Assembly (NCBI GenBank): GCA_023251255.1
Contig: JAHEZD010000023.1
Coordinates: forward strand, 1 to 64,000
Source: Chitinophagaceae bacterium
GTDB taxonomy: Bacteria > Bacteroidota > Bacteroidia > Chitinophagales > Chitinophagaceae
Length of the DNA stretch: 64,000 bases
Direction of reading: 5' to 3'
Both the position numbers and the translations under genes were made by a program. Under the pieces are notes generated by a model that saw nothing but the letters and a program-made list of their open reading frames with translations, was not told the DNA's origin and searched no databases. Position 1 is the stretch's first letter. Every line of letters starts with the position of its first letter. Positions 16,044 to 64,000 of the stretch are shown here, one piece after another.

Positions 16044-16742
16044 TCACGAAGGAATCACTTTCAATTTCTTAGCATGGCTTCCCCATTTGTACTTGTGCGT
16101 ACTGTACACCAGTTTGGTAGCCAGTATGCCCACCCCGGCACCCACCAGCACATCACTGATATAGTGCTTGTTGTTCAGTACGCGGCAAGTGCCCACAGAT
16201 GCCGCTAGTGTGTAGGCCACATAAGGTGCCCATTTGTACCGCTGCCCCAGTTCCTCACTCATAAAGGTAGCCGCTGTAAAGGCCTGTGCAGTATGTCCGG
16301 AAGGGAAGGAGTTATTGCCCGTTCTGTCGGGCCGCTCCGTATTGATGATGAGTTTGGCGGAGGTAACAATAGCCGTCATCAGCAAATGGCTTTTCAGGCA
16401 GATCACTGTGCGGTTCAGCAAATCGGTTTTGCATTTCATGCCCATAGCATCAAAGGCATAGGTAAGCGCCACGGGTGAAAATTGCAGGTAGTCGTCCGCA
16501 TCCGTTTTGAAATGAGGAATGTCCTTGTTCCTTTGATTGCACATCCTTTTGTCAAAGGAAGCAGTATGGGGCAGTTTAACACTGGCAGCCACGCCTGCTG
16601 CAATAAAAAAGGAAGGCACTACCATTTGTTTGGTGGTAAACCTTTTCTCCGTGGGCTGCTGCGCAGCAGTTTCCATTTTTTGCGCGTGTGCCTGGCAAAG
16701 CAGCAACGCAAAGAGGGCGACCGAACAAATGTATTTTCTCAT
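16044..16742 (-). CDS. PAP2-superfamily phosphatase, second gene of a pair
   Basis: Lipid or diphosphate phosphatase of 232 residues, with signal peptide MRKYICSVALFALLLCQAHA; I chose the ATG at 16742 because it begins that signal. PAP2 motifs: KLIINTERPD (motif 1, Lys and Arg-Pro), PSGHTAQAF (motif 2, catalytic-relay His), and CRVLNNKHYISDV (motif 3, where SR is CR but the nucleophile His and Asp are kept). The start overlaps the stop of the upstream PAP2 gene as TAATG, implying translational coupling. Possible substrates are undecaprenyl diphosphate or lipid A phosphates; the sequence does not decide. Confidence 0.85.
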   Translation of the reverse strand: MRKYICSVALFALLLCQAHAQKMETAAQQPTEKRFTTKQMVVPSFFIAAGVAASVKLPHTASFDKRMCNQRNKDIPHFKTDADDYLQFSPVALTYAFDAMGMKCKTDLLNRTVICLKSHLLMTAIVTSAKLIINTERPDRTGNNSFPSGHTAQAFTAATFMSEELGQRYKWAPYVAYTLAASVGTCRVLNNKHYISDVLVGAGVGILATKLVYSTHKYKWGSHAKKLKVIPS

Positions 16743-17656
16743 TACACTTTGTTTTTGATATTGATGATGGGTTTGGGTTGCTTCACAAAAATTTGGTGGC
16801 GCTGGGTAATGATTTTGGCAGTGAGGTAGCCTATACCAATGGCCAATGGATAGTCCCCTGCCCAGTGTACACCATTGTTCACCATGCTGAACGCGGAAAG
16901 GCCCATCAATGAATAGCCAACAGGCCTGATCCATTTTTTATTGGGATAGTTATCTGCCAGGATGGTAATGGTAGCCATGAGGGTTGACAAATGCCCGGAG
17001 GGGAAGGCATCGTATTTGGGCTTGTTGTTCTGGAAATCACTGTAGGAAGGGAAAGGCCTGAAAGCACCGTTTCGCTGCGTGGCATCGGAAGGGGTTTCCC
17101 TTCCCGTGGCATATTTCAGCAATTGCGTGCTTACGCCCAGCGCAATGAAGGATTCCGTGAGGTCGCTGGCCGTTTGCAGCGATGCCGGCCTCTTGGCCAG
17201 TACACCGTCAATGGCCAGCCCGCCTGCGAGCAGCAAACTGGTGAAGCCCTGCCCAAGCGTATAAAAAGCGGTGTTCAGGTTTTTCGGAACCTTCAGCAGC
17301 ACCGTTTCCTTCTCGCCGCTTTTGATGCTCAGCAATATCTTATTTGACTCGTCGGGTTGCAGGTGGATATGGTCGCTGAAGTTCCTTACGCCATCATAAA
17401 TAGCTTGGTCGCTCAGTATCAGCACCGCACTGGCAGCGCCCAAGATGACCGTCGTTTTAAGGTTCTTTTTACTGAAGGGCTGCACAGAGGTTTTGCCCAG
17501 GTCGTTCGGTACATTGGTGACGAAATGGAATGGCTTTGTTTTCTTTACGGGCATTGCCGCCACTGCGGTGTCTACGGGAAGGGTGGGGCGGGCACTATCT
17601 GCCTGCGTATGGCCCAGTACTGGCAAAGCAAAAAGGAACAGGAAAGGAATTTTCAA
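16742..17656 (-). CDS. PAP2-superfamily phosphatase, first gene of a pair
   Basis: Exported or membrane-associated phosphatase of 304 residues, with signal MKIPFLFLFALPVLGHTQA. Residues 60-170 form hydrophobic helices that frame a PAP2 core: KYATGRETPSD (motif 1, with Glu-Thr in place of the usual Arg-Pro), FPSGHLSTLMA (motif 2), and NNGVHWAGDYPL (motif 3, His and Asp kept). It is paralogous in layout to the gene it overlaps (TAATG junction at 16740-16744). The two probably act in the same envelope compartment. Confidence 0.85.
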   Translation of the reverse strand: MKIPFLFLFALPVLGHTQADSARPTLPVDTAVAAMPVKKTKPFHFVTNVPNDLGKTSVQPFSKKNLKTTVILGAASAVLILSDQAIYDGVRNFSDHIHLQPDESNKILLSIKSGEKETVLLKVPKNLNTAFYTLGQGFTSLLLAGGLAIDGVLAKRPASLQTASDLTESFIALGVSTQLLKYATGRETPSDATQRNGAFRPFPSYSDFQNNKPKYDAFPSGHLSTLMATITILADNYPNKKWIRPVGYSLMGLSAFSMVNNGVHWAGDYPLAIGIGYLTAKIITQRHQIFVKQPKPIINIKNKV

Positions 17657-17990
17657 GCGTTACGGGTTTAAGGGTGCAAAATATAGGCGCTTGGTGGCTT
17701 AGGGCTTTAACTAGGTTTAAATAAAAATTGCAATTGCCTTAAAATCGGTTACTGCAGCCCCAACAACAGGATGTGTTATCCTAAGCCAATAAAAATAAAA
17801 GCATGAAAAGTTTGCTGAAAAAAGGGATACCACATAAAAAAAGTTTTCGCAGTTTGGCACCGTACCCAATGCCACAAAAGAATTTCCAATAACAATTGCA
17901 ACTGTGACCAACTGGTTGTGACCAACCGGTTGGTCACAGTTGGTTTGTCACAACCTGAAAAAGAACTATTTTACTGTCAAATGGCGTAAA
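17657..17990. other. Divergent intergenic region with symmetrical operator
   Basis: These 334 bases separate the leftward PAP2 pair from the rightward Xre-type regulator. They contain the 48-bp operator at 17904-17951 and a 29-codon ATG frame at 17803-17892 whose product would be basic (MKSLLKKGIPHKKSF start). I regard that frame as possible but unproven. Confidence 0.55.
17904..17951. promoter_or_regulatory. 48-bp two-fold symmetrical operator
   Basis: Four half-sites are arranged with exact symmetry about 17927/17928: GTGACCAAC at 17904-17912 and 17918-17926, then GTTGGTCAC at 17929-17937 and GTTTGTCAC (one mismatch) at 17943-17951. The centre, GTGACCAACCGGTTGGTCAC, is a perfect 20-bp palindrome. 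It ends 39 bases before the start of the regulator gene, as expected for autoregulation. Confidence 0.75.
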
Positions 17991-18545
17991 ATGAAGAAGA
18001 GGAAAACAACCCTGGCCGCTCAATTGGGCATCACGCAGCAATTCCTGTCCAGGTTTTTGGGCATTGCCCGCAGTTCCATTACCATGTTCGAAATGGGGCA
18101 CCGGAACCTGCCCCATGCGGGAGCCTTCAAGACCAGCCTGTTAATGCAGGCATTTTCCAGCGACCGGAAGCCCGCTTCCTGGGAAGGCCATGCAGCGCAG
18201 GAAACTGCCGAAGTGCGCCAAATGCTGGAAAACAGTATCCAAGTGAACGAGGCCAAACTGTTCCTTTTACAGGCCAAACTAAAAAAATGCTGCGGGAACT
18301 ATGATAGGGAAGCAAATGCCATGCGGACAGCAGGGCTGCTACTGGAAAGCCTGCCCCCGGTTTCCGGCCCACCCGATGAGGATCAAAAGTGGCTGGAAAA
18401 CTTCGAGGCGGATGCACGGTACAGGATGCAGAAGTATAGCAAGGCCGTGCAGGCCAACCTGCAACTGAAAATAGAAGCACTTGACTTTGAGGTAGCTGCT
18501 GCCAGGAAAAAACTGGCCGAACTTGATCCCAATAATATTGGTTGA
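17991..18545 (+). CDS. Small Xre-type DNA-binding protein with helical C-terminus
   Basis: A 184-residue predicted cytoplasmic regulator. Residues about 5-45 (TTLAAQLGITQQFLSRFLGI, then ARSSITMFEMGHRNLP) read as a Cro/CI-like helix-turn-helix, with the recognition helix at SSITMFEMG. The rest is charged and helical, with heptad-like runs (QVNEAKLFLLQAKLKK and a Lys/Glu-rich C-terminus), suggesting a coiled-coil dimerisation part. I chose the ATG at 17991; a TTG 17 codons upstream would put the start inside the operator. The 48-bp symmetrical operator just upstream suggests that it binds its own promoter. No known partner gene is adjacent. No toxin-like gene is visible. Confidence 0.75.
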   Translation: MKKRKTTLAAQLGITQQFLSRFLGIARSSITMFEMGHRNLPHAGAFKTSLLMQAFSSDRKPASWEGHAAQETAEVRQMLENSIQVNEAKLFLLQAKLKKCCGNYDREANAMRTAGLLLESLPPVSGPPDEDQKWLENFEADARYRMQKYSKAVQANLQLKIEALDFEVAAARKKLAELDPNNIG

Positions 18546-18591
18546 AATTCCATATAGCCAAGGCATGTGCAGCTATGTGCCCGCAAGTCTC

Positions 18592-19785
18592 TTAACTTAC
18601 ATATTCGTTCAAATATTGGTAAGCACCAGTTAGTTTCCCCTCTTTTACCATGGTGGCCCTGGTAATGATATCGCTGCCGCCATTAATGATGTCTTCCAGC
18701 ACGTACTTCAGCAATTGCTCGCCAAAATAGCTGCTTGCATCCCTTGGCAGTTCATTGGGCAGGTTGCCCACGGCCATGATATCGATACTGCTGGATAAAT
18801 AAGGGGCGGTTTTAGTGAAGGTTTTACGGTCAATGCCATACACCGGATTTTCTATGGTTTGGTCGCCAATATTGATGGGAATGCTGCCATGCTCATCATC
18901 CGTAATGTCTGCAATGGTCTGTATGGAAAAATGTTCATCAACATCGGCCTGCTCAAATAAACGGGGAATGGTACTGTCCCAATAAATTCCGTTCATCAGT
19001 ATATCCGTGCATTGGGTGAAGGGCAGGAACAGGCTCCTGTATTCATTGGCGTGCTCATGGAAATGCTCACGCTTGTAAACGCCCGTTTCCTGATGTACAT
19101 AAAGGTCTGCACCCTTCAACTGTACATAAACAGGGTAGGAGAATTTCCTTTTTAAATAGTCTTCCTTTTCCACTTCATGGATGCCCATCAGCCCCATCAC
19201 TTCCACAATGCCATGGGCCACACGGCCGCTTCCCGTAACCGCAATTTTTATATTGGGCAGGCGCAGCCCGAAATAGGCATGGATCAATGAGCGGTAGTCC
19301 CTACTTTCCATCACCCTTGGCAAATGGAATTCCTTGGTCCTGTTGCCATAGGCCATGATGCCATTGTGGGCACCCACCACACCGGCAAAGAAACCGAAGC
19401 CAATGATGCGCTGGCCGTCTTCATGTTCCAGGCATTCGTAATCGATCAGTGTGATGCTTTTGGCAATGATGGCCTTCAGCAGTTCCCGGTTATGCGGCTG
19501 CTGCTTTTTGGTATGCGAAAAGAACAGGTAGGTCTTATTGGCCATCAGTTGGTCCACAGGCACTTCCTTGATGCCCAACAGTATATCGCAGGCAGCCATA
19601 TCTTCCACCACCTCAATGCCAGCCCTCCTGTATTCATCATCGGTAAAGCACCTGTTTGTACAACTTTGTACAAACACTTTCACGTTTGGCCGGTGCTGCT
19701 TCATCCACCTGCATTGTGCGGGCGTGAGCGCCACGCGGTTATCGGCAGGTATTTTTCCTTCTCTAATAAGTCCTATAACAAGCAT
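18592..19785 (-). CDS. Lysine-forming saccharopine dehydrogenase / alanine dehydrogenase-like oxidoreductase
   Basis: NAD(P)-dependent oxidoreductase of 397 residues. The N-terminus (LVIGLIREGKIPADNRVALTP) is the AlaDH/PNT N-domain signature; IAVTGSGRVAHGIVEVM near 180-200 is the Rossmann GxGxxxxG loop. The later part, GSIPINIGDQTIENPVYGID and SSIDIMAVGNLPNELPRDAS, resembles LYS1-type saccharopine dehydrogenases (NAD+, L-lysine forming) more than alanine dehydrogenases. I chose the ATG at 19785. Its actual substrate in this organism is uncertain, since lysA already provides lysine by the DAP route; it may act in lysine breakdown or on another imino-linked substrate. Confidence 0.8.
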   Translation of the reverse strand: MLVIGLIREGKIPADNRVALTPAQCRWMKQHRPNVKVFVQSCTNRCFTDDEYRRAGIEVVEDMAACDILLGIKEVPVDQLMANKTYLFFSHTKKQQPHNRELLKAIIAKSITLIDYECLEHEDGQRIIGFGFFAGVVGAHNGIMAYGNRTKEFHLPRVMESRDYRSLIHAYFGLRLPNIKIAVTGSGRVAHGIVEVMGLMGIHEVEKEDYLKRKFSYPVYVQLKGADLYVHQETGVYKREHFHEHANEYRSLFLPFTQCTDILMNGIYWDSTIPRLFEQADVDEHFSIQTIADITDDEHGSIPINIGDQTIENPVYGIDRKTFTKTAPYLSSSIDIMAVGNLPNELPRDASSYFGEQLLKYVLEDIINGGSDIITRATMVKEGKLTGAYQYLNEYVS

Positions 19786-19820
19786 TCGTCTAATTTTGGA
19801 ATGTGAATATAAGGAAGGAC

Positions 19821-19865
19821 GGTTGATAGTAGACAGTGGACAGTAGAGTGGATAGTAGATAGTTG
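19821..19865. repeat. Low-complexity tandem repeat
   Basis: The words GATAGTAGA, CAGTGGACAGTAGAG and GGATAGTAGATAGT follow one another between two divergent genes. Such strings are frequent intergenic filler in Bacteroidota; no function is implied. Confidence 0.5.
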
Positions 19866-19967
19866 GTTTCAACTTGTGAACAATCTAAACAATGGAACAT
19901 TCAAACCTTCCTCACGACCTCCACCTCAACATTCATCATTCAAAATTCTGCATTTAAAATAATAAGA

Positions 19968-36638: not shown

Positions 36639-37817
36639 ATGAATTATGCTTTCAAACAGACCATGCGCTGGTATGGTCCCAATGACTCGGTTAGTTTAAG
36701 TGATATCAGGCAGGCTGGCTGCAGTGGCGTGGTAACGGCCCTGCACCATGTACCCAATGGAACCGTATGGAGTACGGACGAAATAAAGAAACGCATAGCG
36801 GAAGTGTCCGCAGCGGGACTGGAATGGAAAGTGATTGAAAGTATCCCCGTGCACGAGAACATCAAAACGCAATCGGGCAATTTTGAACAGTATATAGAGA
36901 ATTATAAGCAGAGCATCAGGAATGTGGCAGCCTGCGGTATTGAAGTGATCACTTACAACTTCATGCCCGTACTTGACTGGACAAGGACCGACCTTGCCTA
37001 CACGGTGGAAGACGGCAGCAAGGCACTCCGTTTTGAAAAAGCGGCTTTCGTGGCTTTTGATGCTTTTATTTTGAAGAGGGAAGGGGCTTTGACCGAATAC
37101 ACAGCCGAACAATTGGCCAAGGCCAAGCAACGTTTGGAAGCCATGAGCGGTGAAGAAAGGGAATTATTGGTGAGGAACATCATTGCAGGTTTACCGGGCA
37201 GCGAGGAAAGCTTTACGGTGGAACAGTTTGCTGATGTACTGAAAACCTACGCTGGCATAGATGCCGAAAGGCTCCGCAATAATTTGATCTATTTCCTGCA
37301 ACAAGTGGTGCCAGTGGCTGAAGAAGCCGGTGTGGTGATGGCCATCCATCCGGATGATCCGCCTTATCCGATCCTTGGCCTGCCAAGGGTGGTAAGCACG
37401 GCTGCTGATGTGGAAGCCCTCATCAAGGGCGTACCTTCCGTGGCCAATGGGCTCTGTTTCTGCACTGGTAGCTACGGTGTGCGTGCAGACAATGACCTAC
37501 CTGCTATGGTGAAGCAGTTTGGGGAGCGGATCCATTTTGTGCATTTACGCAGTACGCACCGGAATGCGGAAGGTGATTTTTATGAAGACAACCATTTGGA
37601 AGGCGATGTGGACATGTACAGCGTGGTGAAGGAACTGGTGGGCGTGATGCAGCAACGTAAACTGGGTATCCCCATGCGACCCGATCATGGTCACCAGATG
37701 CTGGATGACCTGAAGAAGAAAACCAATCCAGGTTACAGCGGCATTGGCAGGTTAAGGGGCCTTGCAGAACTTAGAGGATTGGAAATGGGCATTTCAAGGG
37801 CCCTGTTCCACGGTTAA
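36639..37817 (+). CDS. uxuA: Mannonate dehydratase
   Basis: Converts D-mannonate to 2-keto-3-deoxy-D-gluconate in glucuronate breakdown, in the cytoplasm. It has 392 residues, normal for UxuA. Diagnostic segments are [19 protein letters not shown] at the start, [22 protein letters not shown], the metal and substrate residues around [29 protein letters not shown], and [12 protein letters not shown]. No uxaC or uxuB is next to it in the window; the SDR at 29 kb is a possible but unproven partner. A strong hairpin terminator and repeat arrays follow. Confidence 0.96.
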
Positions 37818-37820
37818 AAT

Positions 37821-37949
37821 AATGTGCTGATTAGCTAATTCGATAATTTGCTAATGAATATTGCAGGGTGGCGAGCAATGTGCTAATATGCTAATTCGAT
37901 AATTTGCTAATGAATATTGCAAAATGGCGAACAATGTACTGATTGGCTA
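37821..37949. repeat. Tandem 56-bp repeats, left array
   Basis: Two complete units (37821-37876 and 37877-37932) and a 17-base partial unit (37933-37949). Each begins AATGTGCTRAT and contains AATTCGATAATTTGCTAATG and ATTGC. Read as its reverse complement, the unit matches those of the right array (38052-38358), so the two arrays face each other. Confidence 0.85.
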
Positions 37950-37976
37950 TAATGCATATACAATGCGAAGATGTGG

Positions 37977-38017
37977 CAAGGAAAACCATTTGCAATACAA
38001 ATGGTTTTCCTTGTTTT
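37977..38017. terminator. Perfect 16-bp hairpin between the two repeat arrays
   Basis: CAAGGAAAACCATTTG (37977-37992) pairs perfectly with CAAATGGTTTTCCTTG (37998-38013) around a 5-base loop and is followed by TTTT on the plus strand. It is placed to end transcription of uxuA and probably of the convergent lipoprotein gene. Confidence 0.85.
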
Positions 38018-38051
38018 ATGAAAAATATTATTTATTGAATTATGACTAATA

Positions 38052-38358
38052 ATTAGCACATCAGCTAATCAGCACATTGCCTACCAGTCCGCACCTACAA
38101 TTATCAAATCATCAAATTATCCCATTATCTAATTGCCCTCCACTTCGCACCGATCATTAGCAAATTAGCACATCAGCTAATCAGCACATTGCCGTTCACT
38201 TCGCATCAATCATTATCACATCATCCCATTATCCAATCACCACATTGCCCCCCACTTCGCATCAATCATTATCACATCATCCAATTATCGAATCACCACA
38301 TTGCCCCCACCTTCGCACCGAGCATTAGCAAATTAGCACATTGGCTAATCAGCACATT
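38052..38358. repeat. Tandem 56-bp repeats, right array
   Basis: One shortened unit (38052-38099, 48 bp), four units of exactly 56 bp (38100-38155, 38156-38211, 38212-38267, 38268-38323) and a 35-base partial unit (38324-38358). The unit is ATTAKCAMATYAKC..., AATCASCACATTGCC..., CACTTCGCAYC. Units alternate between two versions, suggesting duplication and conversion. The last unit overlaps the stop codon of the lipoprotein gene. There is no separate spacer class, so this is not CRISPR. Confidence 0.88.
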
Positions 38359-38842
38359 AATGAAGACTTACCACCCTTGCTATTTGCCAGCCCGCTTTTG
38401 TCCGTTGCCATAGGATCACAAACTTGCTGGGATGTGGCGTGTCGGGATTGTTCTGGCTATTGTGGAACTGGTGCATGCCCATTTCCACCGCACCATAATC
38501 CTTAATGGGATACACTTCAATGCTGCCCTTGATCAGTTCCCTTGTCACTTTTCCGCAGATATGTTTCCTGGTGCTCTCAAGGATTTCGTTTTTTGAGGTC
38601 ATCAGCCCCCCTTGGTCATGGTAAAACTCGATGCTATCGGAGTAGATGGTGGATTGCTTGCCAATATTGCAACTATTGTAGGCATCAAAGAAGATACTGT
38701 CCAGCTTTACGATGGAATCATAGAGTTCTTGCGAATCTGGCTTGTACGTCTTTGTTTCATCCATTGGCTTTTCCTTTTTTTCGGAACAGGATAGAACAAC
38801 AAGACAGCAGCATAAGGAAACGAGGGACAATGTTTTTTTCAT
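38357..38842 (-). CDS. NTF2-like (DUF4440-type) lipoprotein
   Basis: A 161-residue lipid-anchored protein: MKKTLSLVSLCCCLVVLSCSEKK, with the probable lipidated Cys in LSCS. The mature part has the SnoaL/DUF4440 pattern of an alpha-beta cone fold: a helix ending DAYNSCNIGKQ, YSDSIEFYHDQGGLMTSKNE, then ILESTRKHICGK, and the closing strands FVILWQRTKAGWQIARVVSLH. Family members are ligand-binding proteins or enzymes; no catalytic residues can be assigned. Its stop codon lies in the last unit of the 56-bp repeat array. Confidence 0.8.
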   Translation of the reverse strand: MKKTLSLVSLCCCLVVLSCSEKKEKPMDETKTYKPDSQELYDSIVKLDSIFFDAYNSCNIGKQSTIYSDSIEFYHDQGGLMTSKNEILESTRKHICGKVTRELIKGSIEVYPIKDYGAVEMGMHQFHNSQNNPDTPHPSKFVILWQRTKAGWQIARVVSLH

Positions 38843-39322
38843 CTTGACTATAGATTTGAAATAAATGTAGGGCTTATTGTAACTAAACCGCCACTAGAGC
38901 TGCAATGTTTTGGTAACCCAATCTTAAAAGATGGCAAGCCCCCTAGTAGGAATCGGTCTAGAATTATTAGATGGAGTGATATGCAAGCGGTTGCAGAACT
39001 GAACTAAGCAGCCTGTGACAAAATTCCCGTGGCAGTTTAGAAGGACAGAAATCCTACGAAAGAATTGTGGTAAATTTTTTGTGGCAAAAAAAATTGCCAC
39101 AAAAAAATTGCCACAAAAAGAGGCTGCCTGGAATTCAGTGTAGTGGTGAGATAGTTTAAGTTGGTATCCAATGTTGTGACATGCAGTTTGTTGAACCTCT
39201 TTCCAAAACGCCCCATTTTCCCTGTAAACCCAAATAGTGGATTCCCATCGCATTCAAGTACCAACTATTGAATGCATAAGCAAATTTTTATCCCTTATTT
39301 TGCAATGTGTAAATTTGACACT
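38843..39322. other. Spacer upstream of the GH31 gene
   Basis: The 480 bases hold the TTGCCACAAAAA repeat at 39075-39119 and no convincing gene. Near the end, TAAATTTG (39310-39317) is a perfect -7 box only 5 bases from the GH31 ATG; if used, the transcript would be almost leaderless. TTATTTTGC at 39296-39304 is an alternative. Confidence 0.5.
39075..39119. repeat. TTTTTTGTGGCAA hairpin plus third copy
   Basis: TTTTTTGTGGCAA (39075-39087) pairs with TTGCCACAAAAAA (39094-39106) around AAAAAA; a further TTGCCACAAAAA follows at 39108-39119. The three copies suggest slippage-type duplication. Confidence 0.7.
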
Positions 39323-41668
39323 ATGAAGAAAATATTGCTTGCCGCCCTCACCATATCCTATATGGCTGCCCATGCGCAGAACCGTCTAAGTGAACAGATT
39401 GGCAGCATAAGAAGAGTAGTTCCCATTACGGGCGGCTACGAGTTTGAACTTTCCAATGCCTACGCAAGGATAACTTGCTACAATGCTACCACTGTAAGGA
39501 TAAGAGTGAGTAAGGGGAAATTTACAGATGATTTCTCCTATGCCATTGATGAACTGGCTGCGAAAGGGAAAATCATCAATCCCAACAATTCGGGCAGCAA
39601 ACGTTTTTATGAAACGGATTCATTGCGGATCACCGTTGAAGGGGAACCTTTCCGTGTGAGTATCTACAACAGTAGGAACGAACTGTTGAACGCAGATGAA
39701 GCGGCTTTGGGCATTTCATGGTTCGGCAACCAGGTAAGCTGCTACAAGCAGTTGCACAAAGATGAAAAATTCATCGGACTGGGGGAGAAGACAGGAGGCA
39801 TTGACCGTCGTGGTAGTTTCTTGCAGCACTGGAACAGCGATGTACCCGGCTATGGACTGAATGCCGATCCCTTGTATTCTACCATACCTTTTTTTATTGG
39901 CCTACAGAACAAGCTCTCTTATGGGATATTCTTTGACAATACGCACAGGTCCTATTTCAATTTTGGTGGCGGTGCCGATGAGAACCTGTTCCATTTTGGC
40001 GCAGATGATGGGGAAATGAACTATTATTTTTTTGGTGGTTCATCTGTGCAGCAGATCATTAAGGACTACACTGCCCTCACTGGCCGCACGCCCATGCCAC
40101 CACTGTGGAGCCTTGGCTTCCAACAGTCACGCTGGGGCTATGACAACCAGGAACAATTACTGACCATTGCCAAAACATTCCGCGAAAAGCAAATGCCTGC
40201 CGATGTAATCGTAAGCGACATCAATTACATGGACAATTTCAAGATATTTACCTGGAGCAGCAAGTTCCCTTCCGTGAAAAACATGCTGGGCCAAATGAAA
40301 GGGATGGGTTTTGATATGGTCACCATCATTGATCCGGGTATCAAGGTAGAAAAGGGCTACAAAGTCTATGAAGAAGGACTGGCACAGGACCTTTTTGTAA
40401 AGTATCCCAATGGTAAGACCTTTATAGGTTCGGTATGGCCGGGCCGCTGCCATTTCCCCGATTTTACCAAACAGGCAGCGAGGACATGGTGGGGCAACAA
40501 TTTCAAGGAAGCCTATGTGGACAATGGTGTAAAAGGTTTCTGGAACGATATGAACGAGCCTGCAGTATGGGGCAGGGAGTTCCCCAACCTGATTGAATTT
40601 GGCGAGGGCAAGGACAGGAAAACATTGTACAGCGTGAAGAATGCCTATGGGCTGTTGATGGCCAAAGCAACTTACGAAGGAACGAGGCGTTTGTTAAACG
40701 GGCAAAGACCATTTGTGCTCACAAGGGCATCCTACAGTGGCGTGCAGAAATATTCGGCCCAGTGGACAGGTGATAATGTGAGCACTGACGAGCACATGCT
40801 ATTGGGCTTCCGTTTGCTGAACAGCATGGGCTTAAGTGGCGTACCTTATGTGGGCATGGACATTGGTGGTTTCATGGGCAATCCATCCCCTGAATTGTTT
40901 GTCCGCTGGATGAGTTTGGGCATCTACTCCCCACTCTTCAGGAACCATACCCATTTTGGCTACAATTACCGCGAACCTTGGTTGTTTGGTGAATACAATA
41001 CCGAGAAGATCAGGAAAATCCTGGAACACCGCTACCAGTTGCTACCTTATTTATATTCCTCTTTCTATCAAGCACATCAAACAGGCATGCCCATCAACAG
41101 GATGCTTCCCATCAACTATACATTCGATGAAAAAGTGTACGATGGCAAGTTTGAGAACCAGTTCCTCTTTGGCGACAATATGCTGGTAGCTCCATGTGCT
41201 TCCACACAGTCAACAACCGAAGTTTATTTTCCGGGCAGTGGCAAATGGTACAGGTTGAGCAATGATAAGATATATGAAGGTGGGCAATCAGCTTATGTGC
41301 CTTCGCCCATTGAGGACCTGCCAGTGTTTGTAAGGGCTGGTGCCATTATTCCTATGCAGTCCATCATCCAGAACACCAAGGAAAAAACAGACGGGATCCT
41401 GTACCTGCATATCTGGAAGGGAACGGAGAAAACTTCTTTCGATTATTATGAGGATGATGGCGAGACCTATGGTTATGAGAAAGGTGGTTTCTACCAGCGG
41501 AATATCCTCTATGATGCACGCTCCAACAAAATAATGCTGGAGAAAAAGGAAGGCAGTTATGCTTCCAAGTTCAACAAGTTGAAAATCATTTTGCATGGCT
41601 TTGATAAATCCGATAATTTAGATTTTTCCCTAACGGACGCTTCCATGATTATTGATTTGAAAAACTAA
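39323..41668 (+). CDS. Exported GH31 family glycoside hydrolase (alpha-glucosidase type)
   Basis: A 781-residue enzyme with signal MKKILLAALTISYMAAHAQ, likely periplasmic. The N-terminal beta-sandwich (about 30-260, with NRLSEQIGSIRRV and FIGLGEKTGGIDRRG) precedes the catalytic barrel: PPLWSLGFQQSRWGY, nucleophile Asp in GVKGFWNDMNEPAVWG, acid/base Asp in SAQWTGDNVS, and LFRNHTHFG. C-terminal beta domains follow, including YEDDGETYGYEKG. Substrate is an alpha-glucan or a related alpha-glycoside. The stop codon is 4 bases from the ATG of the next gene, so the two are co-transcribed. Confidence 0.94.
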   Translation: MKKILLAALTISYMAAHAQNRLSEQIGSIRRVVPITGGYEFELSNAYARITCYNATTVRIRVSKGKFTDDFSYAIDELAAKGKIINPNNSGSKRFYETDSLRITVEGEPFRVSIYNSRNELLNADEAALGISWFGNQVSCYKQLHKDEKFIGLGEKTGGIDRRGSFLQHWNSDVPGYGLNADPLYSTIPFFIGLQNKLSYGIFFDNTHRSYFNFGGGADENLFHFGADDGEMNYYFFGGSSVQQIIKDYTALTGRTPMPPLWSLGFQQSRWGYDNQEQLLTIAKTFREKQMPADVIVSDINYMDNFKIFTWSSKFPSVKNMLGQMKGMGFDMVTIIDPGIKVEKGYKVYEEGLAQDLFVKYPNGKTFIGSVWPGRCHFPDFTKQAARTWWGNNFKEAYVDNGVKGFWNDMNEPAVWGREFPNLIEFGEGKDRKTLYSVKNAYGLLMAKATYEGTRRLLNGQRPFVLTRASYSGVQKYSAQWTGDNVSTDEHMLLGFRLLNSMGLSGVPYVGMDIGGFMGNPSPELFVRWMSLGIYSPLFRNHTHFGYNYREPWLFGEYNTEKIRKILEHRYQLLPYLYSSFYQAHQTGMPINRMLPINYTFDEKVYDGKFENQFLFGDNMLVAPCASTQSTTEVYFPGSGKWYRLSNDKIYEGGQSAYVPSPIEDLPVFVRAGAIIPMQSIIQNTKEKTDGILYLHIWKGTEKTSFDYYEDDGETYGYEKGGFYQRNILYDARSNKIMLEKKEGSYASKFNKLKIILHGFDKSDNLDFSLTDASMIIDLKN

Positions 41669-41672
41669 CTGA

Positions 41673-42362
41673 ATGTCCCATCAAAAGCAGCAGCAGCACC
41701 ATGATTTATTTGAAAACAGGAAGCAGTTCCAATTGGAAAGATTGATTTTGTTCAGTGATGCGGTTTTTGCCATCGCCATTACATTGTTGATCATAGAAAT
41801 AAAAGTGCCCGAGATACACCATAGCACAGACCTTACCCATGACCTGAAAGAAGCCCTATCTGAAAAGTTCCCGGAATTTTTTGGATTGGTGCTGAGCTTT
41901 GCTGTAATTGGCCAATTTTGGCACAACCATCACCGCCTATTTGGTTTCGTGAGCAATTACAATGGCAGTTTGGTGTGGCTGAACCTGCACATGCTTTTTT
42001 GGATTATCCTTGTACCATTTACTACTGGGCTCAATTCAAGGTATGGCAATCTCAATTTGGTCTGGCAGATATACAGCTTCAACCTTTTCATGATTGGTAT
42101 TTCATTGTTCCTACTGTACAGGTATATTGGCAACCCCAAACACAGCTTATCTGACCTGGCCAATGACCAATTGAACAAGCGCTTCTCCATGTACAGGAGC
42201 CTGTCTGTAGCTTTTATCTTTTTATTGGGTGTTGTGCTTGCCAATTGGGATGGACAATTGATTTCCAATATCTCCAGGTTCGTTTACTTCCTGATTCCCG
42301 TTGCCATTGGCATTATTAATAGGCGTTACCATCATGCAAGGAAAAAGGTTCATCACAATTAA
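41673..42362 (+). CDS. TMEM175-family potassium channel protein
   Basis: A 229-residue inner-membrane protein with about six transmembrane helices. The first helix carries the family signature RLILFSDAVFAIAITLL, the (R/K)xxxFSD pore motif of bacterial TMEM175 (DUF1211). Known members are K+-permeable channels that lack the classical TVGYG filter. It follows the GH31 gene by 4 bases and is surely on the same mRNA, an odd pairing for which I know no functional reason. Confidence 0.88.
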   Translation: MSHQKQQQHHDLFENRKQFQLERLILFSDAVFAIAITLLIIEIKVPEIHHSTDLTHDLKEALSEKFPEFFGLVLSFAVIGQFWHNHHRLFGFVSNYNGSLVWLNLHMLFWIILVPFTTGLNSRYGNLNLVWQIYSFNLFMIGISLFLLYRYIGNPKHSLSDLANDQLNKRFSMYRSLSVAFIFLLGVVLANWDGQLISNISRFVYFLIPVAIGIINRRYHHARKKVHHN

Positions 42363-56239: not shown

Positions 56240-59200
56240 TTTTACCAGTCTTTGTGTTATCCTCTCATTGTCCCAAATTAGGGTTATTTGATAATCACCA
56301 ACTTTCAAATTGGTGGCACTGATGGTGCATGATTGATTCCCTTTAACCAGATTAATTGAGCTACTGCTGATTGTCCTTCCGGAAATATCTGTAATAAGCA
56401 CTGTTGCTTTTGTTGCAATAACGGAACTGATGTTCAGTGTCAGCAAGTCCTTTACAGGATTTGGATAAAGGCTAAAAGCATTAATACTGCTTTTGTTCAA
56501 ATTAACCGAAACGATATTGGAGTAAGTGAAACTACCGTTCCTGTCCAATTGTTTCAATCGGTAATAATTAATGCCATCAAATGGTTGTGCATCTGTCAGG
56601 TTATAATTGTTGATGGATGATGAGCCATTCCTTGCTGCAATGGAATCCATGGTAATGAACGACACGCCATTGGTGGACCTTTCAACAATAAACCATTGGT
56701 TGTTGATTTCATTGGTAGTTTTCCATTGCAATTGGACGGTCCTGTTATTGTTCAACGAAGCGTTGAAAGACAATAGTGTTACCGGTACCGCAGCGTTCCT
56801 TGTGTACCAGATAGGGGAGGTGATTGTCCTGTTTCCATTGATGGTTATATCAGCATAATAATAGGCAGTTGCACCTATGGCTGTTGTATTATCCGTAAAT
56901 GATAATGTGGAACCTGTTATGCTGGTCAATTGAACAGGCAATACACTGCTTCCTGCAACTCCATACATTATTTTTATAGTTGGTGTGGAAGATGGGCTTG
57001 TTGGGTCTGTGGCATAGACACTGATGGCCGGTGCAATGGTACCTGTAAAAATACTGCCCATCAATTGGTTGTTGATGGTGAAGTTGACCCTTGTATCACA
57101 GTCTTCTGTGGCATAAAAATGCCTTGCCTTCATAGCCGCATAGAAACTCGCACTGTTAAGGGTAGTGCCAACCACTGCTAACCTATTATTGCTACTGCGG
57201 CCAAAATTGGTATAGTGGGTATCATGGTCCATGAAGGGGCCGATATGGTAACCTTTTGAAAGCAATTTGTTGTAATAGTCCAAGTAAGCCATGGCCGATG
57301 GGGGATCATTGTAAGTAGTGCTGGTGGAGAAAGCGGGCCCGCTTGCAACAGCGGTCCCAATTAATGCACTGTCGGCTACCGCATTGAAAGGAATGCTGGC
57401 CAAGCTATTGTAATCGGAAAAATCAGGATGCGCACAGGATGCAAAAACAGTTCCGCCTGCATTATTGAGGTTGTTCACTGTTCTGAAAAGCCCTGTTGTA
57501 CCAGTGGATTCAGGCGTTCCTATATAATCGCTTTTAGGAACATAGATATTGTAATTGTTCGTTTCCCAACCAATTAATTGGTTGCTCCCATAAATCAATA
57601 CATGCCCACCATTACTGATAACCCCATACTCCATGCCGTACAGGGCCAGGAAGTTGGACGTAGTTGCTGCGGCTGCTTGGGTCATGCCGGGTTGCCAATT
57701 GCTCAAATGCATACCGGCTTCTGCATGGTTGTGCTCGGATATGCCCAGAAAGTCCATGCATAATGAGTTTTTTGCATAGGCATAATCATCAGCAGGAGTA
57801 AAGGTTGAGTTGTCCTTGTTGCCATCCGAATAGTAGGAATGCGCATGGAGGTTACCGAAATAATAATTGTTCACTGCAATTGCAGTTGTTGTGGCATTGC
57901 CCGTTAGGGGGCTTGTAACAAGATAAAATGGGCCACCGCCAGTGCAATTGCTGTTCCTTGAAAAAATGAAATAATAATATTGGGTACTGGCTGTCAATCC
58001 AATATCTATAAATGAAGTGGATGATGCATTGGCTATAATGGTTCCGTTCCCCAAAGTATTCCCTATTGTATAGGTAGTGCCATTGGTCGGTGTTGATGAC
58101 AAACTGGATGAGGTGCTCCTTACAACGAGGTAGCCATCTGCGGCAGCGGCCTGCACAAAGAAACCATTGATGGTATTGTTACCGGCAGACAGGTTCAGTT
58201 GTGTTGGTTGTGCAGAAGGAGTTGTACAAGCTGGTAGGGCAACTGTTGTTACACTGTTGGTCAATGGCGATGTTGAGTTATAGACAGGTCCACCATTGCA
58301 GTTCTGACTGTTGATCCCAAAGACAAAGAAATAGTACAGCGTACCACTAGAAAGGCTAGAGGAAATGAAGGTGGTCCCTGTTGTCCTGCTTACAACAATG
58401 CCGTTACCCAGGGTATTCCCACTGTTGTAGGTGGTGCCGTTATTCAGGGTTCCTGTAAATGTGGCTGAAGTGGTCCTTACAATCAAATATTCATCAGTGC
58501 TTGCTGCTGCTGTAAAGCTTCCCGAAATGCTTGATGTGGTAATATTACTGAAGGTCAATGATGTTGGTTGCGCTGTTGGCGCGGCGCAGGGCAATGGCCC
58601 TGCTAGGGTTGTTGCAGAACCATGTAGGGGGCTGGTGCCTGAATACAAGGGACCGCCTGTACAAACATTGTTCATGGAAAAAACAAAAAAATGGTAAGTG
58701 GTGGAATTGGTCAGTCCCGTTGCTGTAACTGTTGTTCCACTGGTCACGGCAATGACAGTGCCATCACCAAGGTTATCACCAATATTATAGATAGTATTGT
58801 TTACGGGGTTGGAACTCAACGAACTGTTATTGCTCATTACCACTAAATAGTTCTGTGGTGCAGGGCTTGCTGCGGTATAGGAGAACTGTATGGAATTATT
58901 GATGACTGTCCCTAGCACAAAGGAAGTTGGTTGTGCTGTAGGCGCTGTGCAGGCAGTGGTGGGTACAGCTGTTATTTTAATATTGTCAAGATTAAGTCTT
59001 GGCCTTGAACCAGTTGTGCCACCTGTTGCATTATAATAATAGAAACGCAAACGCGCCGTGGCCGAACCATCGAAAGATGAAGGCAATGCTACATTGGTGA
59101 TGCTACCTGCAGTTGGGCTGTTATTGGTAAAATTCAGCACCTGTGCTGCCGTGATTTCTGTAAAAGTGGTACCATCCGTTGAAGCATAGACTTTTAAGCT

Positions 59201-59668
59201 ACTGTTCCTGTTGCCTGTGCTGTTACTGAGCGAGGCCCAATCAAAACTCAGAACGCCTGCGTTAACGCTGGTGAAATCCAGGAAGAAATCCATGGCTACG
59301 GAGGTAGAATTGTCCGTTGTGCCTGTGGACAATAACACCATACTTTGCGTACCCTTGTAAACGCCGCCACTGTAGCCCCCGCCACCAGTGGGCGGTGTTT
59401 GGAAAAAATTGGAGAGGGTGGTTATCCTTGTTGCGTTGGGAACGGTAGGTGTTGCGGTCACGGCATCCATACCTTTCCAGGCTGCGGCACCTGTGCCTGA
59501 CGTAAATGTTCCGTCAGTGGGGCTGGCATTGAACGTCCAGTTATTGATGTCTGCAAAGGTTTCCGTATAGGTCAGGCTAGGCTGGGCAGAAAGATGGATG
59601 GCTGTCTGGCTGTTACTATTGAACAAAAGGCAAAGCATTAGCTGAGCCAATAAGAATATTTTCTTCAT
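56234..59668 (-). CDS. Large T9SS-exported protein with Fn3-like repeats and a PHP metal-hydrolase domain
   Basis: A 1144-residue exported protein from the ATG at 59668 (MKKIFLLAQLMLCLLFNSNS signal). Order: an all-beta N-terminal domain (about 30-240), three 115-residue Fn3-like repeats starting TAPTAQPTSF, AAPTAQPTSL and TTPSAQPTQL (about 245-595), a PHP-type domain of CehA/McbA kind from about residue 603 (GNLHAHSYYSDG, LGISEHNHAEAG, FASCAHPDFSD, GPFMDHDTHYTN), an Fn3-like segment (PVTLLSFNASLNNN, IVERSTNGVSF) and a T9SS tail (FSLYPNPVKDLLTLN to RITQRLVKL). The metal-binding His residues are all present, suggesting an active phosphoesterase or other hydrolase displayed at the surface. Confidence 0.9.
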   Translation of the reverse strand: MKKIFLLAQLMLCLLFNSNSQTAIHLSAQPSLTYTETFADINNWTFNASPTDGTFTSGTGAAAWKGMDAVTATPTVPNATRITTLSNFFQTPPTGGGGYSGGVYKGTQSMVLLSTGTTDNSTSVAMDFFLDFTSVNAGVLSFDWASLSNSTGNRNSSLKVYASTDGTTFTEITAAQVLNFTNNSPTAGSITNVALPSSFDGSATARLRFYYYNATGGTTGSRPRLNLDNIKITAVPTTACTAPTAQPTSFVLGTVINNSIQFSYTAASPAPQNYLVVMSNNSSLSSNPVNNTIYNIGDNLGDGTVIAVTSGTTVTATGLTNSTTYHFFVFSMNNVCTGGPLYSGTSPLHGSATTLAGPLPCAAPTAQPTSLTFSNITTSSISGSFTAAASTDEYLIVRTTSATFTGTLNNGTTYNSGNTLGNGIVVSRTTGTTFISSSLSSGTLYYFFVFGINSQNCNGGPVYNSTSPLTNSVTTVALPACTTPSAQPTQLNLSAGNNTINGFFVQAAAADGYLVVRSTSSSLSSTPTNGTTYTIGNTLGNGTIIANASSTSFIDIGLTASTQYYYFIFSRNSNCTGGGPFYLVTSPLTGNATTTAIAVNNYYFGNLHAHSYYSDGNKDNSTFTPADDYAYAKNSLCMDFLGISEHNHAEAGMHLSNWQPGMTQAAAATTSNFLALYGMEYGVISNGGHVLIYGSNQLIGWETNNYNIYVPKSDYIGTPESTGTTGLFRTVNNLNNAGGTVFASCAHPDFSDYNSLASIPFNAVADSALIGTAVASGPAFSTSTTYNDPPSAMAYLDYYNKLLSKGYHIGPFMDHDTHYTNFGRSSNNRLAVVGTTLNSASFYAAMKARHFYATEDCDTRVNFTINNQLMGSIFTGTIAPAISVYATDPTSPSSTPTIKIMYGVAGSSVLPVQLTSITGSTLSFTDNTTAIGATAYYYADITINGNRTITSPIWYTRNAAVPVTLLSFNASLNNNRTVQLQWKTTNEINNQWFIVERSTNGVSFITMDSIAARNGSSSINNYNLTDAQPFDGINYYRLKQLDRNGSFTYSNIVSVNLNKSSINAFSLYPNPVKDLLTLNISSVIATKATVLITDISGRTISSSSINLVKGNQSCTISATNLKVGDYQITLIWDNERITQRLVKL

Positions 59669-59737
59669 TGGAGCGGGATTGTGCAAATGCGAATATCGTT
59701 AAAGAAAATGGGAGTGAGGTTAAATTAAAATGAACAA

Positions 59738-59757
59738 GCCCCACTGTTTTGTGGGGC
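59738..59757 (-). terminator. Terminator after tRNA-Gln
   Basis: GCCCCAC (59738-59744) pairs with GTGGGGC (59751-59757); on the minus strand it is followed by TTGTTCATTTT. Confidence 0.75.
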
Positions 59758-59765
59758 CTGTTTGT

Positions 59766-59834
59766 TGTTCCATAAGGATTCGAACCTTAACTGAATGAAC
59801 CAAAATCACTAGTGCTACCGTTACACCATGGAAC
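59766..59834 (-). tRNA. tRNA-Gln (UUG anticodon)
   Basis: On the minus strand GTTCCAT pairs with ATGGAAC in the acceptor stem; AGTGA/TCATT forms the anticodon stem around TTTTGGT with anticodon TTG; the T-arm is TAAGG-TTCGAAT-CCTTA. CCA is not encoded. At 69 bases it is short but complete. It decodes CAA and probably CAG. Confidence 0.92.
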
Positions 59835-59864
59835 AATCCGGGTTCCATTATTTCTAATGGGTTG

Positions 59865-59896
59865 CAAAAATAAAGGCAGGATACTATCGTTCCAAA
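59865..59896 (-). promoter_or_regulatory. Promoter of tRNA-Gln
   Basis: On the minus strand TTTGG (59892-59896) and TATTTTTG (59865-59872) are 19 bases apart, a full -33/-7 match. The short leader contains the hairpin CCATTA-GAAA-TAATGG. Confidence 0.8.
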
Positions 59897-60185
59897 AGTT
59901 TTTCTTTATTTGTGGAATTATTTATGGCACTTGTTGGTATTGTACAATTGCATGGTGGGTAGTACTTGTCATACTGCGTATTATTTCCCTTGATTAAATA
60001 AGAGAGGAACTGATTCTTTGAAGCTTTTTAGGTAACCATTCGATGCTTATTCGAAGTCCTTCGAGTGTTGTTCCGTGCCCTCATTCAGTTACTACCAAAG
60101 AAGACCGAACAAATAATGAAGTAAATTCGATGTAATGTGCATACATATGCAAGCACAAATCCGAAGCAGTCTTTTAATACACAGA

Positions 60186-60351
60186 AGCTGTTTGAACTTT
60201 TTCAAAACGCTCTTTTAAACAGCATGTGTCTATGTTTCCACAAGGCTCCTACATGATAAATACTGTTAGCCTGGGGTGCCCGGAGGCAACCTTTACGAAC
60301 GAATTCTACGTTTATAAAAGTGCTAACAGCTTCATTGTGCGTTTTGGTTGC
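60186..60351. repeat. Diverged direct repeat, copy 1
   Basis: It shares with 60496-60657 the ordered blocks AAAACGCTCTTT, AAACAGCATGTGTC, CCACA.GG, ATGAT.AAT, CCGGAGGC, TTTACGAACGAA, CTA(C/T)GTTT and AACAGCTTCA, spread over about 165 bases. Confidence 0.75.
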
Positions 60352-60396
60352 TTCCGGTCCAGCACATAAATAAACCGTCAAAAACACAGCTTTTTT

Positions 60397-60446
60397 TGTA
60401 ACCTTTTTTTTGTAAACTTTTAAAAGTTTACAAAAAAAAGGTTACA
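60397..60446. repeat. 50-bp perfect palindrome
   Basis: The sequence from TGTAACC through eight T, GTAAACTTTT to AAAAGTTTAC, eight A and GGTTACA is exactly self-complementary about 60421/60422, with no central loop. It sits between the two direct repeats. Confidence 0.9.
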
Positions 60447-60495
60447 TTTTATTCCTTGATGTTTTAATTCTTTATGTGGGATATTGTTTTTCATT

Positions 60496-60657
60496 GAAGT
60501 TGTTTAAATTTTTTAAAACGCTCTTTCAAACAGCATGTGTCGATATTCCCACAGGGCCTAAAATGATGAATAGTGTCAGCCGGAGGCGCTCGAAAGCGAT
60601 TTTTACGAACGAAATCTATGTTTTTAGAAAGGTTAAACAGCTTCACAGTTTTTGATT
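60496..60657. repeat. Diverged direct repeat, copy 2
   Basis: Second copy of the block at 60186-60351, about 308 bases downstream in the same orientation. It ends at the stop codon of the T9SS gene at 60660. It carries an extra CGCTCGAAAGCG foldback. No frame is conserved between copies. Confidence 0.75.
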
Positions 60658-60659
60658 GC

Positions 60660-62621: not shown

Positions 62622-62818
62622 AGAGAGGTTGTTTTGATTCCTTAAAAATAACAATATTAAATTGTTTGTCAAATCAGTTAAGAAAATATGAGACTCTTTG
62701 CATGATAAAGTCGGCAGCATTTATCAATGTTAAGGCATCTTTAATCTTATATTGGGACTACGTTAAACCGAACCGAGTAAATTGCGTCTGTTTGTTTGCT
62801 ATAACTAACTACCCCTAA

Positions 62819-64000
62819 ATGAAAAAGATATTTCTATCCTTGCTGATTTGCTGGTTTTCATTGCCGGCTTATTCCCAGGATTTCTCTAATAAAGGAAAGG
62901 ATTTTTGGTTAGGCTATGGTTACCATGTTAATATGGGGGCAGGGGTTGCTGCCAACCAGCAGAACTTACAAGACATGGTTCTTTATTTCACCTCCAACCA
63001 GAATGCCCAAGTAACCGTTGAAATCCCATCTGTAGGTTATTCTCAGACTTACACAGTTATAGCAAACCAAGTGACGATATCCAGCCCATTACCAAAGTCA
63101 GGAACACAAGATTCAAGAATTCTGGATACAGGCTATTACAACAGAGGAATACATGTTTTTAGCAATGTGCCTATTGTTGCTTATGCCCATATTTATAATG
63201 CAAGTGTCTCGGGCGCTTCTTTACTTTTTCCAACCAATACTTTAGGACAGCAATACTATGCCATTAGCTATACGCAGGCTTCAAATGCATCTTACGCAAA
63301 CAATTTCTTTTTTGTAGTAGCTACTGAAGATAATACCACCGTTGAAATAACGCCTTCTGTTGCAAACAAAAATGGCAAGCCAGCGGGAGTGCCGTTTAAC
63401 GTTACCTTAAACAAAGGACAGATTTACAGTGTTTTTGGAACCACAAATGGTAATACAGGAACAGATTTAACGGGTTCAAAAATAAGGTCTGTAAACGTAG
63501 GTACGGGTGGATGCAAAAGAATTGCAGTATTTTCCGGGTCTGGCAAAATGAGTATAGGTGTTAGTCCGACTGGTGGAAGTGGAACAGCAAGTGGCAGTGC
63601 TGACAATCTTTTTGCCCAAGCATTTCCTTCAACTGCGTGGGGGAAGAAGTATTTAACTTCTCCTACTGGTTCCCAGCCTAATAATTTTTATAGAGTTTGT
63701 GTTTCCGATCCTACAACTGTCGTAAAATTAAATGGCATAACCATTCCTTCATCCAGTTTAATTAATGGTTTTTATTATCAGTTTAGAAACAGTAGTACCA
63801 GCATAACTACAAGTACTGCACAACCCAATTTAATTGAAGCAGATAAGCCTGTAATCGTTGCACAATATTGTACCACGCAGGGTTTGGAAGGCAATCCTAC
63901 AACTGGTGATCCTGAAATGATTTTTTTGAGCCCTGTTGAACAAACAATAAATAATATTACACTTTATTCAGCATCAGCTTATCAAATTACTTTAAATTAT
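62819..64000 (+). CDS. IgGFc-binding-like surface protein, 5' part (cut by window end)
   Basis: The frame is open from the ATG at 62819 to the window end (394 codons seen, no stop). The signal is MKKIFLSLLICWFSLPAYSQ, then DFSNKGKDFWLGYGYHV, matching the start of the 1000-residue protein at 25771 (DYSNKGRDFWLCFPSHV). Further shared words are IVAYAHIYNA/IVLYAHIYAD, VVATEDNTTVEI, CKRIAVFSGSGKM, AFPSTAWGKKYLTSP and GDPEMIFLSPVEQTINNITL. By analogy the rest should hold PKD repeats and a T9SS tail, but that part lies outside the window. Confidence 0.88.
   Translation, partial: MKKIFLSLLICWFSLPAYSQDFSNKGKDFWLGYGYHVNMGAGVAANQQNLQDMVLYFTSNQNAQVTVEIPSVGYSQTYTVIANQVTISSPLPKSGTQDSRILDTGYYNRGIHVFSNVPIVAYAHIYNASVSGASLLFPTNTLGQQYYAISYTQASNASYANNFFFVVATEDNTTVEITPSVANKNGKPAGVPFNVTLNKGQIYSVFGTTNGNTGTDLTGSKIRSVNVGTGGCKRIAVFSGSGKMSIGVSPTGGSGTASGSADNLFAQAFPSTAWGKKYLTSPTGSQPNNFYRVCVSDPTTVVKLNGITIPSSSLINGFYYQFRNSSTSITTSTAQPNLIEADKPVIVAQYCTTQGLEGNPTTGDPEMIFLSPVEQTINNITLYSASAYQITLNY

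Follow-up and report, generated by a model that had tools for sequence, protein, structure and literature searches.

We found that a 50-bp site directly upstream of a gene for an XRE-like helix-turn-helix (HTH) protein is probably the gene's own operator. HTH domains joined through their tails would bind the site cooperatively and repress transcription, and the paralogues of the gene would have diverged together with their operators. The site is located in the window, by which we mean the whole 64,000-nucleotide stretch analyzed here. Its locus comprises the following features.

16742-17656, minus strand: PAP2 gene, neighbour (Pfam)
17887-18573, plus strand: sharply bounded duplicated unit made up solely of putative operator and gene; its 687 bp match contig C169 (locus L057) at 93.3% identity
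17903-17952, plus strand: putative operator, an array of four half-sites TGTGACCA, forward at 17903 and 17917, reverse at 17931 and 17945 (the last with one mismatch)
17917-17938, no strand: perfect 22-bp palindrome, core of the array with the two inner half-sites (read from the sequence)
17991-18545, plus strand: gene for a 184-residue XRE-like HTH and helical-tail protein (ORF list, Pfam, structure model) with the recognition-helix residues R27, T31 and M32
18592-19872, minus strand: AlaDH/PNT-like (alanine dehydrogenase/PNT-like) gene, neighbour (Pfam)

The four half-sites, each of 8-9 bp, follow each other in steps of 14 bp in the order > > < <, with the rightmost one reading TGTGACAA, one base off TGTGACCA. 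The array has a four-site score of 45 out of 48, compared with a mean of 28.1 (sd 2.5, maximum 36) for 100 shuffles, and three shuffled windows contained no array scoring at least 40. The gap between the end of the array and the ATG of the 184-residue gene is 38 bp. A preceding sequence-only reading had described four near-identical half-sites with outer-to-inner steps of 14 bp, and these are indeed present at this place and stand out from shuffled sequence. It had also claimed exact two-fold symmetry over 48 bp. The symmetry is good, but exactness was overstated given the one-base mismatch, the asymmetric linkers and arms of 25 nt each that are 80% complementary over 50 bp. The central palindrome is perfect as claimed, although its length is 22 bp instead of 20 bp.

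An AlphaFold2 model of the window protein, built from five sequences only, showed a mean pLDDT of 76 and a pTM of 0.52. It places HTH helices within residues 8 to 56 (8-12, 16-23, 27-34 and 42-56; block pLDDT 55-72), followed by a tail consisting of a 57-residue helix (64-120) and helices 130-148 and 151-178. This is in agreement with the small HTH gene with a coiled-coil tail that had been proposed directly 3' of the site. The predicted fold is a helix-turn-helix, as in HTH_3/XRE proteins. In case of Pfam HTH_3 (PF01381), the match to the window protein reached 21 bits (E 3.5e-4), below the gathering cut-off of 23 bits, and we therefore refer to the protein as XRE-like and not as a Pfam member; all five siblings tested (L038, L043, L046, L064 and L066) scored 23.6-32.4. 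Searches with a family profile returned the C.BclI and C.AhdI chains, and others, with hits in the HTH part, as well as chain 8bny, an 'Immunity repressor protein' which we take to be a mycobacteriophage repressor, while HipB-like antitoxin models matched weakly and below cut-off. A Foldseek search of the whole model against the PDB gave no match at E ≤ 1e-3, with 434 Cro among the weak matches, and PADLOC, NCBIfam, PHROGs and Pfam contained no full-length family model for the members tested. The ORF list also contains an alternative TTG start at 17940, but the 93% identical copy lacks any in-frame start upstream of its ATG.

Together with its divergent paralogues, the window gene forms a family of about 25 in its own Chitinophagaceae genome (G000; 6.1 Mb, 188 contigs). 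Searching this genome with the window protein yielded 28 matches at E ≤ 1, and a profile of 28 members yielded 35 matches at ≤ 0.1, 24 of them near full length at ≤ 2.2e-16, followed by a near full-length match on contig C155 (1.8e-10) and ten that are fragments, partial or weak. The window protein belongs to this family, here called F0, by full-length alignment of HTH and tail together with an upstream four-site array. F0 is rare outside its own genome. With the single window protein as query, it was detected in 4 of 196 genomes, and a profile search of the order, scoring no more than eight candidates per genome, found 5 of 396 genomes to have matches that cover most of the profile (own genome included in both cases), while 11 further genomes matched only within the first 62 profile positions or less. 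The few relatives outside G000 include one genome of the same genus and two full-length proteins in a Chitinophagales MAG; of 46 loci, the other 42 showed similarity in the first part alone, extending to residues 1-122 at most. No paper on the family was found in the open-licence PMC literature. A phage origin was rejected, as viral contigs contained no relative with the window protein as query and only five matches with a five-member profile, all confined to the first 40 residues.

Clustering of neighbouring ORFs showed that two families, F1 and F6, recur directly beside F0 members; response-regulator-like and unnamed clusters recur as well. F1 (136 aa) was present at eight fetched loci, with 11 copies in G000 and a single further copy elsewhere among 196 genomes, and F6 (ca. 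200 aa) at four fetched loci, at three of them directly before the family gene. Sampled members of both carry no Pfam, NCBIfam or PADLOC name (two F1 proteins in case of Pfam), and homology of F1 to the F0 tail was rejected based on an hhalign probability of 0.7%. F1 and F6 may modulate some family members. Proteins of the F1 family (136-141 aa) were also seen beside regulators at L045:4577-4987, L046:6091-6501, L047:3833-4243, L051:4709-5131 and others. Separately, arrays at L045:6778 and L051:7668 lie upstream of ORFs that by eye resemble LytTR-type response regulators, divergent to F6-F0-F1 clusters.

Arrays of this kind are found upstream of most family members. For the four-site score, with a maximum of 48, we allowed any 8-mer as half-site and looked for a repeat of it 13-15 bp away plus a pair of reverse complements at the same spacing, all within 170 bp upstream; a count of repeated 7-mers had separated poorly from shuffles and was replaced. 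Scores of 35-48 were obtained for 22 of 28 family upstream regions, and none of 100 shuffles of each reached its score, while 220 upstream regions of other genes averaged 27.6 (sd 2.6, 99% quantile 36). Twenty of the 28 exceed 37, the best control once a divergent neighbour in a member's intergenic region is set aside, and L034 (35) and L030 (36) fall inside the control tail. Six members score low. Of these, L013, L015 and L019 each follow immediately after another ORF, the perfect array of L008 lies further upstream than the 170 bp tested, L007 carries four sites arranged in another geometry and L023 shows no clear array upstream. Further, 6 of 11 additional relatives score at least 35, taken here as the highest value among as many as four candidate starts and without shuffles, with the array of one more (L102) partly outside the tested 170 bp.

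Spacing was counted in 35 genes for distances up to 24 bp and with words picked by hand or eye, so that the resulting grammar is descriptive. Neighbouring sites of the > > type are 14 bp apart in 28 of 40 cases and those of the < < type in 35 of 52, while > < pairs are separated by 13-14 bp (33 of 47) and < > pairs by 12 bp (16 of 25), with up to eight sites per array. Even sites at a fixed direct-repeat distance suggest that neighbouring proteins may contact each other both along the DNA and across the dyad. The words themselves differ. Across 26 members there are 20 distinct half-site words, usually of the form TGTnnnnA; TGTGACAA is common to five members, each in a different genome, and TGTGGTAA to three genes of G000. 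Half-sites are thus private for most members, not all. The sequence-only reading had expected the half-sites to recur before orthologues, and in this respect GTGACCAAC was kept only in close copies, whereas the architecture recurs with other words in 22 of 28 members and these words track the recognition helix. Its proposal that the site is the operator of the adjacent gene therefore gains support from both the family-wide architecture and the tracking of residues and bases. The Bacteroidetes promoter motif (-33/-7) occurred in 3 of 34 family upstream regions, as in shuffles (mean 3.1), and no promoter was found by motif, which speaks against the operator reading.

Co-variation was scanned in 26 related members, where 1002 residue-base pairs could be tested. 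Mutual information was scored against permutations in a common TGT register, with register and words picked by hand. The three highest-ranking pairs were T31 with base 5 (z 6.4), R27 with base 6 (z 6.3) and M32 with base 4 (z 5.8). Ala31 is accompanied by A5 in 14 of 14 members and Ser31 by a base other than A5 in 9 of 9 (Fisher 1.2e-6), with the three remaining members carrying T, G or W at residue 31 and all having A5. Arg27 goes with C6 in 17 of 17 cases compared with 1 of 9 for other residues (5.8e-6), and M32 with G4 in 14 of 16 compared with 2 of 10 (p 0.001). Helix-3 positions 1, 5 and 6 contact bases in 434-type repressors, and residues 27, 31 and 32 of the family correspond to these positions and pair with three adjacent bases. 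In a FastTree tree built from the sequence beyond residue 41 and used without support values, seven parsimony changes are required for residue 31 and likewise seven for base 5, and one ancient split therefore does not explain their association. As evidence against, some pairs outside the helix also ranked high, among them M1 with base 4 (z 5.2, mostly due to alignment gaps) and L135 with base 8 (z 4.2), and the helix residues as a group lie only moderately above the rest (mean z 0.90 vs 0.28, p 0.011).

The set initially comprised 27 members, with L017 dropped as a near-duplicate of L010. Left out were near-duplicates (L005 and L021), mixed half-sites (L012), fragments (L024, L025 and L031), members with other geometry or unclear register (L090, L093 and L096), partial ones (L036 and L076) and those without a clear own array (L013, L015, L019, L023 and L034). 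In an unblinded check on left-out members, carried out with the rule already known, L096, the gene at C23:3706, a fragment on C154 and L012 agreed at both 27/base 6 and 31/base 5 (4 of 4 each). Residue 32 and base 4 follow the rule in L096, C23, C154 and L024, while L012 gives a mixed picture. For the L024 type, the outer half-sites fit Arg27-C6, while the inner ones (TGTGAAC) carry A6, against the rule. These patterns are best read as recognition helix and half-sites having changed together, with paralogues that would have diverged in specificity.

Array and gene are duplicated as a small unit. The similarity between the window and C169 starts 16 bp ahead of the array and ends 28 bp past the stop codon, and blastn detected none beyond these 687 bp. 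The dN/dS ratio of the window gene and the C169 copy was 0.27, and four other pairs showed ratios of 0.22-0.39, two of them with dS > 1.2 and thus near saturation. Another subfamily is broken at contig ends; two 5' pieces are 96% alike up to ca. 106 bp ahead of the ATG, and a pair of 3' pieces is 98% alike up to the stop codon. The exact inverted pair of the window occurs at three loci, namely the window, the 93% copy and a remnant, and C177 holds a one-mismatch relative. Window-type remnants that kept the array and lost most or all of the gene are located at C43:158378 and C177, and a sister type (outer TGTGACCA, inner TGTGAAC) is found without intact gene on C60, C63, C136, C150 and C159. 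Two side observations were made: a further dispersed repeat at L057:5876-6181 (with an inverted end repeat) and L188:2685 directly adjoins window-type operator copies, and in the gene-less operators at L184:2798 and L187:757 the outer arms are symmetric past the half-sites with differing letters (GACC..GGTC vs GATG..CATC).

Arrays were also found away from family genes. A sequence-free scan of the window returned two more, neither with a family gene within about 2 kb.

39065-39116, no strand: second window array, half-sites TGTGGTAA/TGTGGCAA (scan; no family gene within 37001-42000)
60397-60446, no strand: third window array, a 50-bp palindrome, half-sites TGTAACCT/TGTAAACT (scan; no family gene within 58001-63000)

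The former lies within a possibly spurious minus-strand ORF of 109 aa, between divergent ORFs of 161 aa (222 bp away) and 798 aa (155 bp away); the latter is flanked by direct repeats of ca. 170 bp (60184-60353 and 60496-60661) that are 77% alike. A sample of 239 kb of G000 (20 round-numbered contigs, not including C65 and C80 with their family genes) contained three arrays, all of them lacking a family gene on the retrieved stretch. This corresponds to ca. 13 per Mb, a density that is very uncertain with three events. The same scan found none in G002 (140 kb), G013 (140 kb) and G008 (92 kb) and none in shuffles. Arrays lacking a nearby family gene speak against the operator reading, and some of them have words that match no family member found. 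Arrays with TGTACCAA exist in two copies, identical over 50 bp with unrelated flanks, and those with TGTGCCAA in three copies with different centres, two of which share some ten flanking bases. In the sister genome G002, the only place where the TGTAGCAA array was found is upstream of its own gene, and gene-less copies are therefore not a demonstrated general property of the family. At L194:2179-2803, four different arrays lie within about 620 bp with no family gene recognised.

One type of array is part of a mobile-looking element. A repeat of ca. 540 bp carries an eight-site TGTGGTAA array and the end of a gene (remnant) at loci L274-L283 (C12, C36, C65, C126, C136, C5, C175 and C141), with six copies having both terminal inverted repeats (TIRs) and four more cut by contig ends. 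In the six two-ended copies the TIRs contain AACGCAAGTTGCTAGTT with no or one mismatch; four of these copies are 96-98.5% alike and the other two ca. 86-92% to them over the main matches, and in four of the six a 4-bp A/T target-site duplication can be seen by eye. This element, the C107 gene unit with its flanking 24-bp inverted repeat and the gene-less arrays of the 239-kb sample would all fit an explanation in which the arrays are primarily palindromic mobile DNA, similar to dispersed repeats or MITE-like hairpins, and the HTH gene is cargo or passenger. Identical inverted linkers point in the same direction, as they were observed in 15 of 25 arrays without intact gene compared with 4 of 13 beside a family gene or cluster, many of which could form hairpins, with half-site agreement among these 38 arrays stemming partly from the scan's own selection. 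However, linkers are asymmetric in several gene-linked arrays (window, L042, L043 and L054), no TIRs were found around the window unit, dN/dS is well below 1 and half-sites co-vary with the adjacent recognition helix, which makes this explanation unlikely. The sequence-only reading had named occurrence of the same repeat at many unrelated loci as evidence for a REP-type element. The outcome was mixed, in that the exact pair occurs at three loci, whereas sister-type and other arrays are dispersed, one of them in the TIR-bounded repeat. A REP-only reading of the window site is disfavoured by the few exact loci and the residue-base co-variation.

Two further explanations concern the gene leader and the identity of the regulator. 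Inverted repeats upstream of the start, A/T-rich linkers and gene-less copies between genes might be expected from a hairpin acting at the RNA level as attenuator or terminator. Such a hairpin would need neither pairs in the same direction at 14 bp nor eight-site arrays, linkers are often unpaired, and the bases co-vary with protein residues, rendering this explanation extremely unlikely. The gene could also encode the controller or antitoxin of a restriction-modification or toxin-antitoxin system, given the profile hits to C.BclI and C.AhdI, the weak HipB-like matches and the operators for two dimers known for C proteins (PMC4321490, available part). Yet the window gene lies between the PAP2 and AlaDH/PNT-like genes with no endonuclease or methyltransferase adjoining, neither immediate neighbour matches a Pfam toxin family, and the F1 and F6 neighbours of other members are without library names in the sampled copies (most neighbour ORFs lying outside the library runs). 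We consider this assignment very unlikely.

The preferred reading, an own operator bound by the adjacent gene product, shares features with several known systems. Controllers of restriction-modification systems (C.AhdI, C.BclI and C.Csp231I) resemble F0 in having an XRE-like HTH, and their operator before the own gene would have its putative counterpart in the four half-sites of F0. The C.BclI and C.AhdI chains, of 77 and 74 aa, lack the roughly 120-residue tail of F0, and C proteins work with restriction-modification genes. According to the available part of PMC4321490, C proteins have an operator upstream of their own gene that is bound by two dimers, and the C.Csp231I sites consist of two palindromes with an 18-bp spacer, whereas F0 arrays contain four even > > < < half-sites. 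Proteins of the 434/lambda Cro and CI type (HTH_3, PF01381) have the same kind of DNA-binding domain, and F0 differs in tail, operator grammar and paralogue expansion. In a study of mycobacteriophage repressors, stoperator sites were reportedly asymmetric and bound by a monomer. For cluster A immunity repressors, the part of PMC6550527 available describes repressor and stoperator motifs that diverge in a correlated fashion and many dispersed 13-bp sites, and F0 is similar in both respects. Cluster A repressors are phage-encoded with asymmetric single sites, in contrast to the many paralogues in one chromosome and symmetric four-site arrays of F0. MITEs and REP elements share with F0 arrays that they are short, dispersed palindromic repeats, one F0 array type having TIRs, while the window unit has an intact constrained gene, few copies found and no TIRs found. 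By this comparison, F0 seems to resemble C proteins at the own promoter and cluster A repressors in divergence while missing defining features of each, and we file it as a putative new variant of XRE-like autoregulation.

In conclusion, we propose that four HTH domains, joined by helical tails in a presumed tetramer, would bind four evenly spaced half-sites cooperatively and that the bound protein would switch transcription of its own gene, most likely as repressor given the position of the array upstream of the gene. Small operator-plus-gene units would have been duplicated to ca. 25 copies, after which helix and half-sites would have changed together to give mostly separate sites for each paralogue. 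A more far-reaching version, which we put forward tentatively and regard as possible rather than probable, would see in the genome a resident and partly mobile set of ca. 25 largely orthogonal repressor-operator modules with a three-residue/three-base code and a fixed 14-bp four-site grammar, where gene-less arrays spread by duplication and TIR elements would plug new genes into the circuits. If true, the grammar (> > < <, 14/14/14, 12 bp to the next four) would represent a new higher-order mode of HTH assembly on DNA. Duplicated repressor-operator pairs have been treated computationally (PMC1464816, available part). Cross-talk is to be expected between duplicated repressors as long as protein and operator have not changed together, and one genome would show some two dozen outcomes of this process. 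Because most paralogues keep their operators attached, an XRE-type recognition code may be readable from sequences and testable by three-residue swaps. The family could further supply natural, largely orthogonal repressor-operator pairs for Bacteroidota circuits and would offer a case for studying the joint spread of regulators and dispersed binding sites.
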